A DNA stretch of 59,504 nucleotides, from positions 1 through 59,504 of IMG/VR virus record IMGVR_UViG_3300050021_000174. One strand, 5' to 3'. Below are positions 9,832-59,504 of this stretch, piece by piece. The notes under the pieces are model-generated. The model saw nothing but the letters and a program-made list of their open reading frames with translations, was not told the DNA's origin and did no database searches. The translations under genes were made by a program, and so were the position numbers. This DNA comes from a virus. The first letter of the stretch is position 1; every line of letters begins with the position of its first letter.

Positions 9832-9847
9832 GTGACTACTCCGTCAG

Positions 9848-11002
9848 CTAAAGCAGACGGCTTCTTGGGACACTCGGAGCAACCTCCAAGTTAAGTCCCA
9901 CAGGCTTAGTCCAAGCCTGAACACCACGAGCAAGAATATTTCTTGCAGCGTTGTGATCTCGGTTTAACACAAGTCCACAGTGAGGACAGTTGTGAATACG
10001 AACAGACAAAGATTTTTCGACAATTTGCCCACAAGAGGAGCAGATTTGACTTGTGTTTTTAGGGTTTACACCTATCACAGTGACACCAGCACTTTCAGCC
10101 TTGTGTCTCAGGATGCTCTGGAACGATGCCCAAGCAACGTCAGAGATCGAACGGGCGAGTCTACGGTTCTTGACCATACCTTTGATGTTCAAGCTTTCCA
10201 TAGCAATCATCCCGTATCGACGGATCAATTCATTAGAAGTTTTGAAGTGAAACTCTCTGCGAACATTCTTTACTTTAGCGTGAAGCTTTTGAACTTTCTT
10301 AATAGCCTTGCGCCCATTACTTCCAAGCTTCTTTTTTCTAGAAAGGCTACGTTGTCGCCTTCGCAATTCAGGAAGCTCAGCCTTGAGGAATCGTGGATTA
10401 GCGACATGCTCACCATTACTAGTGACAAGGAAAGAGTTAAGCCCAACATCAATACCAATCGAAGGATTAACAGAGGGAGCAATAACAACATCTCCCAGGT
10501 CACAAGAGACAATCAAATACCACTTTCCAGCTTCTCGCTTCAAGGAAAGAGTTTTGATCGTGCCCTCGACTGGACGATGCAAACAGACTCGGATTATTCC
10601 AACGTGTTGAACTCTCAATCTATTAGCAGTCAGGCGAATTCCATCACCGTGAGAGGGAAACTCAACAGAATCAAAGAAGTCCCTTCCTTTGAATCGTGGG
10701 TATCCAGGTTTGTCCCCTGTCTTGATACGACGAAAGAAAGCCTGGAAGGATTTGTCCAGTCTTCTCATAGTAGCTTGAGCAGAAGAGAAGTTAATTCTAG
10801 CAAAATAGTCGTTAGTAGTCCTTTCAGCCTTGAACCAAACAGACTGCTCAGTGTATTTGATCGACTTCTTTTCCAGTTCGTAAGCATCTTTCTTTTGAGC
10901 AAGGCAGGCATTATACAGGCGTCTGTGAGTCTCAAGCATTATCCCAAGCTCACGCTCCTGATTTTTGTTAGTCCAAAGCCTGTATTTGAAAGCCTTTCTC
11001 AC
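9848..11002 (-). CDS. tnpB: TnpB RNA-guided nuclease (IS605 family)
   Basis: 384 residues from a GTG that directly follows the tnpA stop (TAAGTG). All RuvC-type acidic residues are present: D185 (SIGIDVGLNSF), E269 (GMIAMESLNI) and D349 (LNRDHNAARN), with a zinc ribbon CSSC/CPHC at 321-342 between the last two. TnpB uses an RNA from the element's right end to cut the resealed donor site, helping the element persist. Length is close to the family norm of about 380-400. Its transposase is truncated, so the protein may now act on its own as a guided nuclease or be recruited for another role. Confidence 0.92.
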   Translation of the reverse strand: MRKAFKYRLWTNKNQERELGIMLETHRRLYNACLAQKKDAYELEKKSIKYTEQSVWFKAERTTNDYFARINFSSAQATMRRLDKSFQAFFRRIKTGDKPGYPRFKGRDFFDSVEFPSHGDGIRLTANRLRVQHVGIIRVCLHRPVEGTIKTLSLKREAGKWYLIVSCDLGDVVIAPSVNPSIGIDVGLNSFLVTSNGEHVANPRFLKAELPELRRRQRSLSRKKKLGSNGRKAIKKVQKLHAKVKNVRREFHFKTSNELIRRYGMIAMESLNIKGMVKNRRLARSISDVAWASFQSILRHKAESAGVTVIGVNPKNTSQICSSCGQIVEKSLSVRIHNCPHCGLVLNRDHNAARNILARGVQAWTKPVGLNLEVAPSVPRSRLL

Positions 11003-11114
11003 TTACTTTCCCTTTTGTGCCTCTATGTATTTTCTAATCGTATATTCGGAAACGTGTCCAACAGACCCGGCATAATAAGACCTAGACCAAAGTGTCGGAA
11101 GTTTACCACCCTCC
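11003..11114 (-). pseudogene. 3' remnant of a Y1 transposase gene (tnpA)
   Basis: About 36 codons encode GGKLPTLWSRSYYAGSVGHV, then EYTIRKYIEAQKGK and TAA at 11003. This matches the C-terminal end of TnpA, including the catalytic tyrosine helix (IRKYIE); compare WGGHLWSPSYYVGTAGHVS in the intact TnpA at 23595-24008. The HUH motif half is missing. The remnant overlaps the last three codons and stop of the primase gene in another frame. Confidence 0.8.
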
Positions 11115-17551: not shown

Positions 17552-18268
17552 ATGCTAATCCAAATCAAAAAATGGGTAGACGGTAGCGTTTTGCACGCTA
17601 TTGAGGCTGATAACCTCAATGCTGCTGTTGAAATGCTGATTTCGAAGTCGGCCGATCTCTCCGGGGCCGATCTCTCCGGGGCCGATCTCTCCGGGGCCGA
17701 TCTCTCCTGGTCCAATCTCTCCAGGGCCAATCTCTACAGGGCCAATCTCTACAGGGCCAATCTCTCCAGGGCCAATCTCTACAGGGCCAATCTCTACAGG
17801 GCCAATCTCTCCAGGGCCAATCTCTACATGGCCAATCTCTCCTGGTCCAATCTCTCCGGGGCCTATGGGATAAGCAAATATCTAACGACTCCACTCTATA
17901 TGCTGCTCGATCAACCTGGGCTTATCCGCGCATATAAGCTCGTGACCGATAAAAATACCGGCCCAACTTACCCCGGAACCATCTACGCGCAGGGCCAAAA
18001 GTATGAAGTCGCGAATGCGTGCTGCGACGAATCCGAACAATGTGCTGAAGGCATTAGTTTAGCCACTCTCGATTGGGCGATGAAGGAATGGAGGCCGGGA
18101 TTCAAGATTTTGATCGCCGAGTTTACTACTCAGGAAATAGCTGCAATACCTATAAGTAGTGACGGAAAATTTAGAGTGAAATCCTGCCGGATTGTAGGCG
18201 AAAAGGATTTGAAAGAGCTGGGGCTGGAAAACGAGCAAGTCAACGCAGAATCGGAGGAACAATCATGA
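17552..18268 (+). CDS. Pentapeptide-repeat protein
   Basis: 238 residues. After a 32-residue start come about 14 pentapeptides of the A(D/N)L(S/Y)x type (ADLSG x3, then ANLYR and ANLSR units, residues 34-105), which would form a right-handed four-sided beta helix. The rest is a separate alpha/beta domain ([40 protein letters not shown]) also found in phage pentapeptide proteins. Under the repeat the DNA is nearly perfect 15-bp tandem repeats (17650-17865), so copy number can change by slippage. Some pentapeptide proteins mimic DNA and inhibit gyrase; whether this one does is unknown. GAGG precedes the ATG. Confidence 0.85.
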
Positions 18269-22772: not shown

Positions 22773-22985
22773 ATGAATAGATGGTTGTCGATGCCAGGCG
22801 CGTGTGAGTACGCCGATATGTCACGCAAGACTATGCGGCGCCTAATTGCTGACGGACTGATTGCTGCCGACAGGATAGGCGCAAGCTCGCGCGGTCACTG
22901 GCGCATAGACCGGGAAAGCATCGACAGTTATTTTGGCAGGACTGAGCAAAAAATACTTGCGAAAATACGGGGTCTTCGGCAATGA
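22773..22985 (+). CDS. xis: Excisionase-like HTH protein
   Basis: 70 residues, overlapping the integrase start by four bases. LSMPGACEYADMSRKTMRRLIADG, then GHWRIDRESIDSYF is the MerR-like winged helix typical of excisionases and phage AlpA-type regulators. Next to an integrase gene this points to control of integration or excision. The integrase is broken, so its present role is uncertain. Confidence 0.65.
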   Translation: MNRWLSMPGACEYADMSRKTMRRLIADGLIAADRIGASSRGHWRIDRESIDSYFGRTEQKILAKIRGLRQ

Positions 22986-23508
22986 TTCTGTGCATGAGAC
23001 TCGGGAAGCGCAAAAAATACGGAACTTATTTTATCGAGTTTGATTCCGGAAAACGCCTATCCCTTCAGACTCAGGATGAGCGAGAGGCCAAGCGTCTTTA
23101 TAATGTCTACCGGGCCGAATGGCTTGCGGGGAAGCTCGAACATATCACCGGAGCTTGTTCTAAAACACTTGCGGATTACGCGGAAGAATATCTGAAATGG
23201 GCCGTTGAGGTCCAACCTCACTCGACCTATAGGGCAAACAAACTGGCACTGGATAAACTGAAGCATTTCGCAGGAGAGAAGATCGCTCTGGACCGGATTG
23301 GGATTAAACACATCGACGATATGTGCGCTACGCTCAAGAAACTATCGCCAAACTCGGTCAACAACTACATCCGGCACGCGAGAGTCGTTCTTAATAAGGC
23401 CGTAGATTGGGGATATCTCAAGAGTAACCCGCTATCCAAGGTGAAGCAGGTCAAAGTTGAGAAGCGCCCTCCTGCATTTCTGGACAAGCAACAAGCGGCG
23501 ATATTCAT
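22982..23508 (+). pseudogene. int: Tyrosine integrase, truncated by an IS
   Basis: About 175 codons remain: an N-terminal arm-type DNA-binding part (KYGTYFIEFDSGKRLSLQTQ) and the SAM-like core-binding domain (LADYAEEYLKWAVEVQ to AVDWGYLKSNPLSKVKQVKV). The frame enters the IS left end after AAIF and stops at 23533. The catalytic domain with R-K-H-R-H-Y is missing. It is not found on the far side: joining the flanks gives only about 12 more codons. So the IS insertion was accompanied or followed by a deletion. A phage with this gene cannot integrate by tyrosine recombination. Confidence 0.85.
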
Positions 23509-23558
23509 AAAACCTCCGCAAGGAAACCCCTGATTGAAATCAGGGGAGGAATTGCGGC

Positions 23559-23587
23559 TTGACACGCCGCATCACATGGTATACTAT
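23559..23587 (+). promoter_or_regulatory. Candidate tnpA promoter within the left end
   Basis: TTGACA (23559-23564) lies in the loop of the second left-end stem. TACTAT is 17 bases away (23582-23587) and TATACT 15 away. Both are weaker than the TATAAT in the matching place of the tnpB element, consistent with low transposase expression. Confidence 0.5.
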
Positions 23588-23594
23588 GTGAGGT

Positions 23595-24008
23595 ATGGAA
23601 AACGTTACTACAAACAGAAATTGTGTGTATCAGACTGCTTACCATCTTGTGTGGTGTCCGAAGTACCGGCACGACATTTTGACTGGTGAAGTGGCTAAAG
23701 CACTTGAAGAACTTTTGGATCAAGTTTGCTCCGAAAGAAAGTGGACTATACTGGCACGAGAAGTTCAGCCTGACCACATCCACTTGTTTTTGAGCATTCC
23801 GCCTTCGGTTGCCGTTTCCGATGCTGTGAAAATCCTCAAAGGTACTACGGGTAGACGGCTGTTTGTTCGCTTCCCTGTTCTTAAGAAACGGTTGTGGGGA
23901 GGGCATCTTTGGTCGCCGTCTTACTATGTCGGAACGGCGGGACATGTGAGTGCAGACACTATTAAGAAGTACATTGAACGCTCCGAGCATGTAACGAAGA
24001 GAAGGTAA
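23595..24008 (+). CDS. tnpA: TnpA, HUH Y1 transposase (IS200/IS605)
   Basis: 137 residues, the normal length. HUH motif H61-I-H63 in VQPDHIHLFLS and catalytic Y126 in IKKYIERS; also the typical YHLVWCPKYR start and WGGHLWSPSYYVGTAGHVS. It cuts and joins single-stranded DNA at the hairpin ends and moves the element to TTCAT sites, favouring the lagging-strand template. Only weak GAGG lies close to the ATG, in keeping with low translation. The same ends on the tnpB-only element and the solitary right end mean it could mobilise those in trans. Three bases separate it from the endonuclease gene. Confidence 0.93.
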   Translation: MENVTTNRNCVYQTAYHLVWCPKYRHDILTGEVAKALEELLDQVCSERKWTILAREVQPDHIHLFLSIPPSVAVSDAVKILKGTTGRRLFVRFPVLKKRLWGGHLWSPSYYVGTAGHVSADTIKKYIERSEHVTKRR

Positions 24009-24011
24009 AAT

Positions 24012-24863
24012 ATGGGAGTTCCCAACAAGATCAATAAAGATAATTTGCAATTGGCTTTGAATGCTTACCAATCTGGACAATCGCTGCTTTCCTCCGGGAA
24101 TATTATTGGCGTTAGTGGGGCGGCACTTCGTCAGTATTGCATAAAGCACGGAATAGCACGGAGAACACGAAGTGCATCTATGCGAAAATTGAAAGTTAAC
24201 GAACACTTTTTTGAACAAATCATTAATGAACCCTCTGCATATTGGCTTGGGTTTATTCTTGCCGACGGAACGATTTTTAATGATTCCCTGACTCTTGCTC
24301 TGCATATCAAAGACTCTAATCATTTGGAGAAATTTAAAGAATCTATCGGTGCAGATCATCTTATTAAACATTATCATTATTCCAACCAAACCAGTCGTTG
24401 CCAAATTTCGATACGACGGCATGAGATTGTAAACGATTTGGCTAACCTGGGAATATATCGCAACAAGAGTCTTACTGTTAAGCCTCCGGTTGAACAAATC
24501 CCATTGTCTCTTGTCCATCATTTTTGGAGAGGGGTAATAGACGGAGATGGAAGTATTTGTTTTTTGAAAAAACGCCCTCATAATTCGCACATTTCTCTTG
24601 TGGGTTCTGAATATGTTTGTAATGCCTTCTCTGTTTGGGTCAAAACTTTAGATATAGATAGTCCTGTAGTGAAGCAACATAAAAGCATTTTTGAAGTTAA
24701 AGTATTTGGTAGAATTCGGTGCCGTGTTGTACTTTCTGCTTTATACAAAGATGCCACTCTCTTTCTAAATCGAAAATTTAACGCAAGTCACAATCTTGCT
24801 CGGATTGGTTGCTCTATCGAGCTTCCAAGGGGTGAAGTAGACCACCCTGATGTTGCCGCCTAG
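24012..24863 (+). CDS. LAGLIDADG homing endonuclease with N-terminal HTH
   Basis: 283 residues. The N-terminus has a helix-turn-helix (ALNAYQSGQSLLSSGNIIGV SG then LRQYCIKHGIARR). Two LAGLIDADG motifs follow: YWLGFILADG (77-86, catalytic D85) and FWRGVIDGDG (171-180, catalytic D179), each with the usual beta-strand saddle after it, so it is a complete monomeric enzyme. It would cut one long DNA site. AAGG sits seven bases before the ATG, giving it a better start than tnpA, to which it is coupled. Base composition is more AT-rich than the phage genes around it. It occupies the place tnpB or iscB usually has in such elements. Confidence 0.9.
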   Translation: MGVPNKINKDNLQLALNAYQSGQSLLSSGNIIGVSGAALRQYCIKHGIARRTRSASMRKLKVNEHFFEQIINEPSAYWLGFILADGTIFNDSLTLALHIKDSNHLEKFKESIGADHLIKHYHYSNQTSRCQISIRRHEIVNDLANLGIYRNKSLTVKPPVEQIPLSLVHHFWRGVIDGDGSICFLKKRPHNSHISLVGSEYVCNAFSVWVKTLDIDSPVVKQHKSIFEVKVFGRIRCRVVLSALYKDATLFLNRKFNASHNLARIGCSIELPRGEVDHPDVAA

Positions 24864-24934
24864 CAGCGGACAATAAAGCCTCTGACTTCAGTCAGGGGTT
24901 GTTTACAGTGGACCTCGTGTTGAAATGTTTGGAT

Positions 24935-26209
24935 CTAAATTAAAATTTCGCCCGGTGGCCTCTCATCATATGGAGGTTTTAGCGCAATTAAATCAGCTTG
25001 GCATATTAGTATCTTGTGGGTTTCTTCAAAAGAAGTGGGATAGTAGTTTACTATCCTACTAATTTGAAACCGGCCTTTATACTTGGGCCGTATAAATCTA
25101 GCCCAATTCTCATTTGTATAGTACCAAAGTGAATTACTATTCCAGCGGCTAACGTGAGTCGGGTCTTGAAACGCGCCGCGTCCATCTGTACTCGGCACTT
25201 CTATTAACAGCCAACCGCCGGGTGCAAGAACTCTGTACGCCTCACCCATCGTAAAAATCGGGTCTTTCAGGTGCTCGAAGATATGATACGCCTTAATCAC
25301 GCCAACTGAACCGTCAGCAAACGGCCACCTTTTGTTCAGGTCGCACTTCACGTCCGCGTCGAACTTGTCAACGGTCGTAAATCCCGGCCATGCGTTGAAC
25401 CGTCCGCCGAGGTCGAGTAGCCTGAGCTTGTTGTCTTTGGCCCATCGTATAGCCATGTCCCGGCTGTACTTGAGATAGTTTTGGTCTGTGAGATATTGAA
25501 CTTCGGCATTGTCGGTCACGCTGGTGTTGCTGGGGTGGCGTCGATATAAATATAGGCATTCGTCTATGTGCCTGATTCCCGCAGCCCCGTATGTAATAAA
25601 AAAGCGACAGTTTAAATCGTGGTCATCAGCGGTAGGCATCGTCTCGTCATGTCCGCCAAGGTTGAAGTAGCTGGAAGTTCTAAAACAGCGCACATGATTG
25701 GGGGACCACTCTACCCTTCGGAAAGAATGAGGCGAAGGCGAAAACGCAACCATTTCTTTTAGCTGGTGTCCCTCGAATTCAAAAGCACGAGACTGCCATC
25801 CATAGTCCGAACTGTAAACAAATGGCTCCCAAGTCCGGTCTATGAACTCCGCTGAGTTGCTGTACGCCATGTGAACATCGGAGTCCGCGAAGGATTCAGC
25901 CACCCGATCCAAGGCATTGACCGTGAGCATGTCGTCTGCATCCAACTCGACTAGGACTTCGCCTGTGGCTTCGAGCGCCAAAGTCTTTTTCAATCTCCCT
26001 ATCTTGTTCCGTCCTCCGGCGAGTTCGTCGGGAATGTCTATCACCCTTACCCGGTCGTCTCCTCGAATGTATCCAGGAACCGACCCGCCGTTGTTTACCC
26101 CGATGAGCCATTCCCAATCGGCGTAGGTCTGCTCTTGGAGTTTACGGTAAGCGTCCCGTAAATACGGGGAAGAAGATTTATGGACCGGCGTGAAGACTGA
26201 CAGTTCCAA
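24935..26209 (-). CDS. Glycosyltransferase family 2 / SAM methyltransferase fusion
   Basis: 424 residues. Residues 1-230 are a GT-A fold: SVFTPVHKSSSPYLRDAYRK start, VLVELDADDML (DAD metal motif) and a conserved TADDHDLNCRFF. Residues 255-424 are a class I methyltransferase: LRLLDLGGRFNAW, VDKFDADVKCDLNKRWPFAD, then IKAYHIFEHLKDP and LAPGGWLLIEVPS. The pair could attach and methylate a sugar on virion, DNA or host envelope. It lies directly downstream of the tail fibre gene (11 bases) and is the last late gene, which favours fibre or envelope glycans as substrate; this is inference. Its end is 28 bases from the IS. Confidence 0.8.
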   Translation of the reverse strand: MELSVFTPVHKSSSPYLRDAYRKLQEQTYADWEWLIGVNNGGSVPGYIRGDDRVRVIDIPDELAGGRNKIGRLKKTLALEATGEVLVELDADDMLTVNALDRVAESFADSDVHMAYSNSAEFIDRTWEPFVYSSDYGWQSRAFEFEGHQLKEMVAFSPSPHSFRRVEWSPNHVRCFRTSSYFNLGGHDETMPTADDHDLNCRFFITYGAAGIRHIDECLYLYRRHPSNTSVTDNAEVQYLTDQNYLKYSRDMAIRWAKDNKLRLLDLGGRFNAWPGFTTVDKFDADVKCDLNKRWPFADGSVGVIKAYHIFEHLKDPIFTMGEAYRVLAPGGWLLIEVPSTDGRGAFQDPTHVSRWNSNSLWYYTNENWARFIRPKYKGRFQISRIVNYYPTSFEETHKILICQADLIALKPPYDERPPGEILI

Positions 26210-26220
26210 TAAAGTATCTC

Positions 26221-28533
26221 CTATAGGTTGAGTTTATACCCAAGCACATTAAACGTAGGCGTTGCACCTGCTCCACCCCAATACCAAAGAGTCTGGCCGC
26301 TCAGGATTGGCATTGTTACAAGAATGGTTGTCCCCGCCTGAATGGTAATAAATATATTTGTTCCATCTACACTAAAATTAAGGCCAGTTGTCGCCGCTAC
26401 GGGCTGTAAGGCCGCAAAGGTTACTTCTACTGCATTGGGTGGAATTGTTGTTGATAAGTTCACTGTTCCAGGCGACCCAGATGTATGCGTTCCAACCAAG
26501 GTTACGGGTATCCTGGGATTAATCCATATCTTATCGTTCAACTGATTGCTAAACATCACAATGCTACCGATTCCTATGTAAATACTTCCAACATATCGTA
26601 CATAAGAGTATCCTGTCAGTGGAGTATACCCCGTACTGCCGTCTTGTATGGCTATAAGGTAAGAATCTCCTAAACCGTCTGCATATACGTATAGGTCATA
26701 CCACACCGAACTTAAAACAGAAGGATAATAGGACGAAGGGTCAGTTATATCTGCGTAGAAAATTTTAACAACCGTAGTGTCGGTCCCATTTGACAAAGTT
26801 AAGTCGTGGATATTTGCCATAATGGAATTGGTGCCATGTGTGTTTATGCTTATCTGAGAATAACCGCCGATGGATACGTAACTCTGAGTTGCCAGCGCCC
26901 CCAAAACCTGCCCATTCGAATAGGCTTTCCCGTTCGCAGCACTGAGAAAGAAAGACTGTGCTCCGGCAGCCGTGGTGGCATAAACTCCGGTACTATCCAT
27001 AGCGACCAGCGGATTGCTTGCGGCGGTAGCGAACTTCCCACCCGATAAAAGAGTTACGCTGCTCGCTAGAGTGCTTCCTAACAGTCCGGTCGCCCCTTGA
27101 GCCCCTGTAGCCCCTGTAGCCCCGGCCGGTCCCTGGCTACCCTGTAACCCCGTCGCGCCTTGCGAACCAGAAGAACCCTGTGCCCCGGTTGATCCAGCGG
27201 AGCCTGTAGCCCCTGTCGGTCCTTGACTTCCTTGAAGTCCGGTAGCGCCCTGAGTACCTGCCGGTCCCTGCGCCCCTGTGGCTCCAGTTGAACCGGTTGC
27301 ACCAGATGAACCCTGACTTCCTTGAAGCCCGGTTGATCCTTGAGCACCGTTGGCTCCCTGCGGACCTTGAGGCCCTTGGAAAGCTGCGGAATTAAAATTC
27401 CAGTCGGTGTGTGTGCCTGAGCCGCCTACGGTTGTGGGGTTTATAATAAACGTTGTTCCGGTGTAGGAAACGATATTGCCGGTTATGAAATTGGAAGAAT
27501 TTGCATTCGATGACGTTGTAACTGCCCCGCCAGGCTGATAACCCAAGCCAAGCTGGGTTGTGAAACTGTAATAGGAACCATCATTAGGACTGCCGATAGT
27601 AACAGAGGTAGTGCTGGTGGCCGAGAACGGAGTCCCCGTTCCGCCCTGCGATCCCTGAACTCCCTGTGTCCCCGTTACGCCCTGCGTGCCCTGCGAACCA
27701 GTGGCCCCGGTTGATCCGGTCGGACCTTGTGATCCAGTTGCTCCCTGCGACCCTGTTGTACCAGTAGCTCCTTGTGCTCCTTGCGCTCCCGTCGCCCCCG
27801 TCGCCCCCGTTGCTCCGGTCGGACCTTGGCTTCCCGTTGGTCCCTGTGCTCCAGTTTGTCCGCTTACACCTTGCGTGCCCTGCGGTCCCACGGACCCAGT
27901 AGCACCGGTTGGACCAAGCGATCCCTGCGGACCGGATAATCCCTGCGGACCCATATCGCCCGCAACGCCCTGAACACCTTGGTTCCCTTGCGCTCCGGTA
28001 AGACCCGTAGCACCGGTTGGCCCGGCTGGACCTTGAGCGCCCTGCGGCGTAGTACCAATCGGATAAGATGCAGGATTGCCTGAATCGTCAAACCCGACCA
28101 ACGTCCTAGCGGTAGCCTGAAAATAGGGAACATCTGATTGAGAACTACGGGGTAGTTGAAGCGCACGGTCGGCTTCTTCTTTAAGCTGCTGGACTTGCAG
28201 AGCAAGCTCGTCTAGTCCTGAATTTATAGAAGCTGCCGGTATGTCGGAGTTGGCTACGAAATTTATTCCTTGGGTATACGGAGCTTCCCGCAAAAGAGTT
28301 AGGGTATATCCAATTGGAAGGCTGTTCGTGAGAGTTACGTTCCCCCCCGTTGACACTCCAACCCCCGAAAGAGTGTAGTCTACATTTAAGGTAAGGGTTG
28401 TCTCTACTCCGTTCTCATCGGTAGTCAGGACTAAAAGGTCGGACGATTCCTTTATGATAAAGCTGTACGGGAATGGACCGGTAGCATCCGACCCAGTATA
28501 GGTATTCTTGCATGTGCTGACATTTACTGTCAT
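26221..28533 (-). CDS. Tail fibre protein with collagen-like repeats
   Basis: 770 residues. The N-terminal 160 residues resemble the virion-binding domain of T7-type fibres ([39 protein letters not shown]), ending in a short helix. Two collagen-like Gly-X-Y stretches (about 163-300 and 387-492, rich in GPQ, GAT and GSQ) flank a beta module ([20 protein letters not shown]). The C-terminal 270 residues are a beta-rich receptor-binding head. It is expected to be a trimer. Start overlaps the ATP-grasp gene stop. The repeats in DNA are near-repetitive and can recombine. Confidence 0.88.
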
Positions 28534-52026: not shown

Positions 52027-52081
52027 TTCATAAAACCTCCGCAAGGAAACCCCTGATTTCAATCAGGGGAGGAATTGCGGC

Positions 52082-52110
52082 TTGACACGCCGCTGTTTTA
52101 AATCTATAAT
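52082..52110 (+). promoter_or_regulatory. Consensus sigma70 promoter of tnpB
   Basis: TTGACA (52082-52087), exactly 17 bases, TATAAT (52105-52110): a perfect match to the consensus. The -35 lies in the loop of the second left-end stem. It is much stronger by sequence than the version in the tnpA element. Confidence 0.85.
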
Positions 52111-52135
52111 CCTTCAAACAAAAGAAGGATATGCC

Positions 52136-53269
52136 TTGAAACTGATTGCCCAAGTGAAACTTCAGACTACGCCAGAGCAACACAAAGCCCTGATGGATAC
52201 GATTCTGCGTTCGAACGAATGTGCCAATGCGTTGTCTTCTTGGGCTTGGGAATCGCAAACCTTTCGACAATACGATCTTCACAAGGCAAAATATTTTGAA
52301 CTGAAAGAACAGTTTGGCCTTGGTGCTCAAGTGACAATCCGGTGCATTTCCAAGGTTTCCGATTCGTACAAGAAAGACAAGAAAACGAAACGAGTTTTCA
52401 AAGACACCGGCTCCATCGCTTTCGACAGCCGAATCCTTTCTTGGAAGATGAAAGATCAGTCTGTCAATATCTGGACTCTTGTGGGCAGGCTTCGAGTTCC
52501 TTTTCTCGCAGGGAAAAAACAACTTGAACTTCTCGAACACAGGAGAGGTGAAGCCGACCTTGTGCTTTCCAAAGGAATTTTCTATCTGCTTCAGGTCTGC
52601 GAAATTCCGGAACTGCCTGAGTTTGAACCAAAAGGTTTCTTGGGGGTCGACCTCGGAATCGTTAGTCTTGCCACCACTTCGGATGGAGATACTTTCTCCG
52701 GTGAAGCGACGGACAAAGTCCGAGAGAAAGCAACCGAACTTAAAAGAGCACTTCAAAGCCGTGGCGGAAAGTCTTCGAAACGCCACCTTAAAAAGTTTTC
52801 CGGTAAAGAGGCAAGATTCAAGAAGAACACGAACCACGTAATCAGCAAGAAAATCGTTTTTTTGGCTAAAGACACCTGCCGGGCAATCGTAATTGAAGAC
52901 CTGAAAGGCTTCAACGGCAGGACAACGGTTTCCAAGGCGCAAAGAGAACGGTTCGGGAGGTGGAGCTTCGGGCAGCTCAGAGGATATATCGAATACAAAG
53001 CCAAACGGGAGGGTGTGCCTGTAATTGCGGTCAATCCCCGCAATACGAGTCGAACCTGTTCCGTGTGTGGTTTTGTATCTAAGAAAAATAGAAAGTCTCA
53101 AGCCCTATTCTCCTGTACGAAATGCGGGTTTACAACCCATGCGGACTTAAACGCCGCAATCAATCTTAGTTTTAAGGGCAACCCTGTCAATTTGCCCATC
53201 GCAGTCCACGCTGATTCTCAACTACTCCCGTTCTTGGAACTGCAAGCCTCTGACTTCAGTCAGGGGTAA
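52136..53269 (+). CDS. tnpB: TnpB RNA-guided nuclease
   Basis: 377 residues from the TTG at 52136, with GAAGGAT before it (an ATG at 52131 is out of frame). RuvC residues D172 (FLGVDLGIVSL), E254 (IVIEDLKGF) and D337 (THADLNAAINL) and the zinc ribbon CSVC/CTKC (308-330) are present, so it should be active. It belongs to another branch than the protein at 9848-11002, with little resemblance outside the motifs. The last residues ELQASDFSQG are encoded by the right-end hairpin, where its guide RNA ends. Confidence 0.93.
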   Translation: MKLIAQVKLQTTPEQHKALMDTILRSNECANALSSWAWESQTFRQYDLHKAKYFELKEQFGLGAQVTIRCISKVSDSYKKDKKTKRVFKDTGSIAFDSRILSWKMKDQSVNIWTLVGRLRVPFLAGKKQLELLEHRRGEADLVLSKGIFYLLQVCEIPELPEFEPKGFLGVDLGIVSLATTSDGDTFSGEATDKVREKATELKRALQSRGGKSSKRHLKKFSGKEARFKKNTNHVISKKIVFLAKDTCRAIVIEDLKGFNGRTTVSKAQRERFGRWSFGQLRGYIEYKAKREGVPVIAVNPRNTSRTCSVCGFVSKKNRKSQALFSCTKCGFTTHADLNAAINLSFKGNPVNLPIAVHADSQLLPFLELQASDFSQG

Positions 53270-53301
53270 TTGACGGTCATGCTACGCGCTTACTATTCAA
53301 C

Positions 53302-59253: not shown

Positions 59254-59337
59254 CTCACTCTCCCTTCCTGCAAACCCAACTTCACCTTTTATTTTTGAGG
59301 CTCAGGGAACAACCCCCGGACTCTGATTCATGAAATC

Positions 59338-59377
59338 TGGAACTGCAAGCCTCTGACTTAAGTCAGGGGTAGTTGAC
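59338..59377 (+). mobile_element. Solitary IS605-type right end
   Basis: GGAACTGCAAGCCTCTGACT then TA, AGTCAGGGGTA and GTTGAC: 38 bases matching the right end of the tnpB element with only two differences, including the hairpin and the last codons of tnpB. No left end precedes it. TTCAT is present at 59327-59331. The following bases, CCTAATACCTCCCGTG, lie in the guide position and are also bases 1-16 of the window. 59254-59337 holds nothing else. Confidence 0.75.
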
Positions 59378-59504
59378 CCTAATACCTCCCGTGTCTTGCG
59401 TTCTGCTGTATCTGAAAACGCTCGCTGTCAATGTCCGTTAGCGCCCGATCCCTCTCGCGCCGATATTCATTGGCCCTGTCTTGCTCATGCTGCCGGTACA
59501 TATC
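59378..59504. repeat. Second copy of the 127-bp contig overlap
   Basis: Identical to 1-127 and therefore the same genomic stretch seen twice, covering the 3' part of the secreted-protein gene. It begins exactly at the base after the solitary right end. Confidence 0.9.

Follow-up and report, generated by a model that had tools for sequence, protein, structure and literature searches.

The RNA-guided nucleases TnpB and IscB are regarded as the factors by which IS200/IS605 transposons are retained; homing endonucleases are considered the protein-guided counterparts of both. In the ISDra2-type elements, a gene for a Y1 transposase, tnpA, is followed by tnpB. In TnpB systems, the omegaRNA (reRNA) is formed from 3′-terminal tnpB sequence together with the right end (RE) of the element (PMC10097598). 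In ISDra2, the functional scaffold spans positions -116 to -1, and both the stretch from -231 to -117 and the C-terminal domain of TnpB are dispensable (PMC10097598). Composite elements are represented by the IStrons, in which a group I intron is combined with an IS200/IS605 or IS607 element (PMC4227781).

The window analyzed here is the complete 59,504-bp IMG/VR virus record IMGVR_UViG_3300050021_000174. At positions 23509-24906 it contains a transposon (element A) with intact genes for a Y1 transposase and for a two-motif LAGLIDADG homing endonuclease (LHE). Element A is a real, exact nuclease exchange within an IS200/IS605-type transposon.

Phage genome and insertion site

Head, connector and tail phage proteins are encoded in the window. 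Its termini are identical over 127 nt (1-127 and 59378-59504), and the contig is therefore likely to be the closed genome of a phage. To the left of element A lies an N-terminal fragment of a tyrosine integrase gene (22982-23506; this and the features described below for elements A and B are on the plus strand), which is truncated at the element and lacks its 3′ half. The integrase catalytic domain was not found in any part of the record, rejoining of the flanks of element A did not restore the integrase frame, and no relative whose integrase is intact, and which would reveal the empty site, was found in a search. The earlier note had spoken of an integrase site; with the N-terminal fragment only in the record, the integrase is not cleanly interrupted. 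Because the fragment at the insertion is left without its 3′ half, no homing site is visible.

Elsewhere in the window, an ORF at 17552-18268 contains 15-nt tandem repeats (17620-17889) and is pentapeptide-repeat-like (ADLSG-like). A large ORF of 770 aa (26221-28533) is collagen-like with GPQG/GATG repeats and probably encodes a tail fibre; it is adjoined by a glycosyltransferase-methyltransferase fusion (24935-26209).

Ends and transposase of element A

Direct reading placed a TTCAT target or TAM-like site at 23504-23508, to the left of element A. The left boundary of the relatives L024, L025, L029 and L045 likewise consists of (T)TCAT followed by A, and TTCAT is also found at a second element of this phage, element B. 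The left end (LE, 23509-23575) contains a subterminal hairpin, CCCCTGATTGAAATCAGGGG (DNA fold z -4.0), and is 97% identical to that of element B over 67 nt (23504-23570). The LE motif lies far above chance, with two occurrences found against none expected in shuffles. The RE (24870-24906), which was delimited by direct reading, relatives, a covariance model and folding, comprises the hairpin CCTCTGACTTCAGTCAGGGG and stops with the cleavage end TTTAC at position 24906; the relatives stop at the same motif.

A sigma-70-like promoter (TTGACA-17-TACTAT, 23559-23587) is predicted before tnpA by consensus match. The tnpA gene (23595-24008) encodes a protein of 137 aa that was identified as Y1_Tnp by Pfam (7.6e-43) and as IS200 by NCBIfam (4.4e-47). 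The protein aligned over nearly its full length with solved Y1 transposases; H61 and H63 were invariant and the catalytic Tyr126 was present. Element A has the Y1 HUH transposase with HxH motif and catalytic tyrosine that is characteristic of IS200/IS605 elements, as well as hairpins just inside both ends, a short target of fixed sequence at the LE and no target duplication. Both the limits of the element and the completeness of its transposase (H61/H63, Y126), as given in the earlier note, were borne out by these analyses. In the tnpA copies of L025 and L029 (3001-3411), a serine replaces the catalytic tyrosine (RRSIER and QRSIER, respectively), and these copies may be inactive.

The second gene is a chimera of a phage endonuclease and a TnpB tail

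In a genome scan with tnpA, a Nitrospirae MAG, Sutterellaceae, Aquisalimonas and others yielded relatives that are 62-69% identical; a Methylomarinovum tepidoasis plasmid carries one of 74% identity. In the ISDra2-type elements L024, L025, L029, L045 and L234, tnpB begins 0-3 nt past the tnpA stop, and tnpB is present in L027 and L030-L034 too. The five former elements share with element A the Y1 transposase, the hairpin ends, the TCAT/TTCAT target, the spacing of the second gene, the omegaRNA and the RE. They encode a full TnpB, whereas of this RuvC nuclease just the last 27 codons are left in element A, behind a LAGLIDADG enzyme.

The second ORF of element A (24012-24863) starts three bases past the tnpA stop. 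Its body (24012-24779, aa 1-256) contains an N-terminal HTH and two LAGLIDADG motifs whose D85 and D179 are invariant across an alignment of 53 sequences. The ORF is matched by the endonuclease family PHROG 4645 (3.9e-56) and weakly by Pfam LAGLIDADG_3 (0.0048, below cut-off). The predicted model (pLDDT 92) is confident to about residue 260 and its confidence falls in the tail; the HTH was modelled as three helices (residues 9-45), and the best solved folds were PI-PfuI (Z 18.7), I-Tsp061I (Z 17.4, 1.1e-9) and I-DmoI (Z ~15). The two LAGLIDADG helices, the acidic catalytic residues and the LAGLIDADG fold are all in place. Relatives of the LHE are phage or plasmid genes of the homing endonuclease gene (HEG) type that adjoin gyrA, dnaE and terminase genes. 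The free-standing phage HEGs of PHROG 4645 (27-38% identity) likewise combine an HTH with two LAGLIDADG motifs; no transposase adjoins them, whereas the LHE of element A lies within a transposon and continues into a TnpB tail. No defence-system model matched the LHE or TnpA. Moreover, no group I intron was matched by Rfam at the gathering threshold in the 59,504-bp record, so element A is not an IStron. As in IStrons, two types of mobile element are combined around tnpA/tnpB (PMC4227781); in IStrons a ribozyme was added, whereas element A gained an endonuclease gene.

The remainder of the ORF (24780-24863) consists of the 27 codons NASHNLARIG...HPDVAA and the stop, and is fused in frame to the LHE. 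This tail is 46-58% identical to the TnpB tails of L024, L025, L029 and L045, and in a search with the LHE of element A, residues 256/257-283 matched the ends of the relatives' tnpB genes. At the junction, the LHE terminus ...FLNRKF is followed by NASHNLARIGCSIELPRGEVDHPDVAA, and in L024 the TnpB sequence ...RAHSDC is followed by NASRNLARIGETAVSPRAVVNTPDVGS. LHE relatives in other phages align as far as aa 255-262, with R254 and K255 invariant. As the LHE homology ends at aa 255-262 and the TnpB-tail homology starts at aa 257, two independent homologies meet at approximately one codon. The second ORF is an LHE-TnpB-tail chimera. The GC content is 47% in tnpA, 38% in the LHE body (GC3 31%), 53% in the TnpB tail and 50% in the phage; the LHE body is compositionally foreign.

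Of the earlier description of this gene as a complete two-motif LAGLIDADG enzyme with an HTH, three bases behind tnpA, the enzyme itself stands (PHROG match, model, D85/D179), but the ORF as a whole is a chimera with a TnpB tail. The statement that the LHE takes the place of TnpB is confirmed by the tnpB genes in this slot of the nearest relatives and by the last 27 TnpB codons at the end of the ORF. Almost certainly, a phage LHE gene was exchanged by recombination for the body of tnpB, from the tnpB start position to the RuvC-III codons, and the tail, the omegaRNA scaffold and the RE were kept. An assembly artefact, in which the LHE of another phage was joined to a tnpA-tnpB element, might be considered for a single copy in a metagenomic contig. 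It would have required two codon-exact joins, one keeping the spacing from tnpA stop to start and the other in frame with the TnpB tail, in a contig with identical 127-nt ends, and is scarcely credible.

An omegaRNA scaffold is retained at the right end

A covariance model built from eight relatives, element A excluded, matched 24780-24906 over its full length (104.6 bits, E 2.8e-29; E-values of this search are rough). When these 127 nt were aligned to seven relatives, 31 pairs were obtained with 98% of cells paired, and 16 pairs had changed on both sides. None of 500 shuffles reached a covariation as high, although the structure was partly derived from the same sequences and shuffling does not remove their relatedness. 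The predicted omegaRNA also folds far more stably than shuffles (RNA fold z -4.46). By eye and by covariation, GTAGAC (24837-24842) forms the 5′ arm of a pseudoknot and pairs, with one G-U, with GTTTAC (24901-24906); in the relatives, a GUAAAC loop (GUAGAC in element A) pairs with the RE terminus GUUUAC. Judged by fold and covariation, element A carries the RE omegaRNA scaffold with pseudoknot of OMEGA systems. The LHE/TnpB junction lies at -127, as compared with the ISDra2 scaffold at -116 to -1. The 16 nt beyond the element, AGTGGACCTCGTGTTG (24907-24922), would be the guide of the retained omegaRNA, a role suggested by the described systems (PMC8612924, PMC10097598).

Stem 1 of the omegaRNA of element A contains two U-U mismatches, which could represent early decay. 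As the compensatory changes may be older than the swap, they do not demonstrate present use of the omegaRNA.

Sister element B and other loci with such ends

Element B (52032-53274) has LE and RE of the type of element A, no tnpA, an intact TnpB gene (52136-53269) and its own omegaRNA with pseudoknot (GUCAAUU with AAUUGAC). Its RE hairpin is identical to that of element A over 24 nt, and its TnpB is matched by Pfam and has, by eye, the RuvC residues in place. Copies of element B with 99.5-99.6% identity over ~1.25 kb were found in the phage contigs L074 and L076, and IMG/VR L073 is 97% identical over the available part. The alignments with the near-identical copies stop at the element ends, which indicates that this type of ends moves. 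The comparison suggests recent movement between phages for element B, not for element A itself. The tnpA of element A is the sole full Y1 gene in the record, which makes its product the obvious source of transposase for element B in this phage; TnpA of element A probably mobilizes the tnpA-less element B.

It is also possible that the retained omegaRNA of element A is usable by the TnpB of element B. Such cross-use is made uncertain by the score of just 25.8 bits that the omegaRNA of element B reached with the A-type covariance model. A and B might constitute a split pair with two nucleases, in which A provides TnpA to both and keeps its omegaRNA, B provides TnpB in trans, and the LHE is a second, protein-guided drive; we regard this arrangement as doubtful. 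If it were true, LHEs would be recurrent cargo of TnpB-bearing transposons, of IS605 type here and of IS607 type in the contig L078.

Ends of the A/B type enclose other contents elsewhere. In L071 (2037-3661), they flank a reversed IscB-like ORF with RuvC and HNH motifs recognized by eye, and gene-free, MITE-like derivatives with LE and RE occur in L072 (3276-3490, ~200 bp), L263 and L307. The presence of such ends around a reversed IscB-like ORF or around no gene at all indicates that the end family tolerates nuclease exchange. The IS605-type elements with IscB (L071 and others) belong to the same end family as element A and carry a different nuclease cargo; IscB is RNA-guided and its gene reversed, whereas the LHE of element A is protein-guided. 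The window also contains a third IS605-type locus on the minus strand (9832-11105), with a TnpB of another clade and a tnpA remnant (11012-11092). This locus is 99.8% identical to L077, which lies with the element B copy L074 on one 74,885-bp contig. A solo RE stub without LE (59331-59377) lies close behind a TTCAT and is 95% identical to the RE of element B over 40 nt.

A related endonuclease in an apparent IS607-type element

The best viral match to the LHE of element A (35% identity) was found in L078 (2656-5450). There, the TGA of the LHE gene immediately precedes the ATG of an intact tnpB, with no gap, and upstream of the LHE lies a 93-aa MerR-type HTH. By itself this HTH is unspecific, as other MerR-type models score higher, and the IS607 type was therefore assigned from a comparison with L323. 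In L323, a full IS607-type TnpA, the N-terminus of which closely matches the L078 HTH, comes before a TnpB that is 59% identical to that of L078. Behind tnpB, L078 and relatives alike have the RE motif ATTTTTGTAAGTTT. By this comparison, L078 looks like an IS607-type element with the LHE in place of the serine-recombinase (catalytic) domain of TnpA. As in element A, a related LHE precisely occupies one gene slot of a transposon of the TnpB-bearing kind; in L078 tnpB is intact and the catalytic domain of the transposase is lost, and the reverse applies to element A. No LHE was found near the other TnpB relatives of L078 (0 of 39), and element A and L078 were not joined with support in the LHE tree. 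The position of the L078 LHE within an IS607-type element indicates that element A is not the sole case in which a TnpB-bearing transposon captured an LHE.

The LHE might target conserved tnpB sequence: it would have homed into the RuvC-III codons and would convert other TnpB elements, and the upstream part of tnpB would have been deleted later. In element A the junction falls within AAYGC, a conserved coding motif of tnpB, and the L078 LHE adjoins tnpB too. The latter is located at the tnpA/tnpB junction and not at RuvC-III, however, an LHE at the RuvC-III position was found in no other tnpB, and a second exact deletion would be required. This explanation appears improbable.

Search for further pairs of tnpA and LHE

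Besides element A, no LHE adjacent to a Y1 gene was found in ~80 viral LHE loci, 76 viral Y1 loci and 82 RE loci. The 82 viral RE-pattern sites were preceded by TnpB in 25 cases; reversed IscB-like ORFs were present at several of those inspected, and short derivatives also occurred. A second tnpA+LHE element was found neither in viral scans with the LHE, tnpA, LE pattern and RE pattern, nor in the genome scan with tnpA, nor with the LE pattern in 765 genomes, nor by an LHE search of eight genomes with tnpA relatives. In 119 genomes from the phylum to which G014 belongs, the LHE family was matched once. At the DNA level, whole element A matched phages and plasmids in tnpA only. In L215, which was considered as a tnpA+LHE unit, the LHE lies 1.6 kb from Y1 and TnpB on the opposite strand and was rejected as a neighbour.

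The pairing of tnpA and LHE is rare, and a general class of such elements was not supported, as no other Y1-adjacent LHE was found. The remark in the earlier note that the combination is not recognised as a described class agrees with the literature searched (open-access papers and some preprints), in which we found no paper on tnpA+LHE elements or on LAGLIDADG genes in IS605/IS607 elements. The nuclease exchange is new to the literature searched and rare, with one parallel in the IS607-type element L078.

As element A is a single copy in one metagenomic contig and the searches revealed no tnpA+LHE relative, nothing indicates that the pair is under selection or has spread as a unit. The LHE may thus have been a chance hitchhiker that recombined once into tnpB, whereby the nuclease was lost and a tnpA-only IS with a neutral, decay-bound passenger remained. 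The singleton status of element A in all searches is consistent with this, as are the foreign composition of the LHE, which suggests a recent arrival, and the two mismatches in omegaRNA stem 1. On the other hand, the two junctions are exact, neither of the active sites nor any ORF is damaged, the operon layout has been preserved, and the IS607-type L078 provides another LHE swap. We consider a chance passenger unlikely, though well worth keeping in mind. The earlier note had proposed homologues without LHE, together with an LHE confined to this genome inside an interrupted ORF, as the mark of a hitchhiker. By this measure the locus does resemble a rare capture, but L078 has a related LHE as a built-in part.

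Proposed mode of action

The best overall explanation, to which we assign about an even chance, is that the tnpB body was swapped for a phage LHE, that the element is moved by TnpA and that the LHE is a fixed-site homing or exclusion endonuclease. The LHE probably was inserted at the tnpA/tnpB junction and tnpB was then deleted in frame, a route made likely by the L078 LHE that abuts the tnpB start. TnpA would excise and insert element A, and probably element B too, as single-stranded DNA at TTCAT. The LHE would be translated as the second cistron, in the tnpB slot, and would cut one fixed site of 14-40 bp in element-free DNA, such as a co-infecting phage or a host allele. Like the free-standing phage LHEs, it would gain by homing or exclusion. 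That TnpA mobilizes A and probably B, and that the LHE gains in this manner by cutting a fixed site, is a tentative reading that falls somewhat short of an even chance.

The earlier note had suggested that the LHE does the retention job of TnpB, such that the rejoined donor site or the circle junction is cut and repair restores the element. The LHE occupies the slot of the retention nuclease, and the role of TnpB has itself been compared to homing endonucleases (PMC11870625). A fixed-site enzyme, however, cannot follow an element that enters any TTCAT, whatever its flank: the donor joint consists of TTCAT and a variable flank (here TTCAT followed by AGTGGACCTCGTGTTG), which is too little for an LHE. 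The circle junction is constant, yet cutting there would destroy the element. Moreover, what was kept of the TnpB system is its guide-RNA part. Retention by the LHE is very improbable; most likely, the enzyme serves in homing or exclusion by cutting at a fixed site and is not a TnpB-like retention device.

In the proposed mode of action, the transposon would be a vehicle for the endonuclease gene, and the endonuclease a site-fixed drive replacing the guide-directed one. The natural swap of TnpB for an LHE, with the guide-RNA scaffold left in place, makes it directly testable whether a fixed-site enzyme can stand in for a guided nuclease. It likewise allows testing whether an orphan omegaRNA still serves a TnpB acting in trans.
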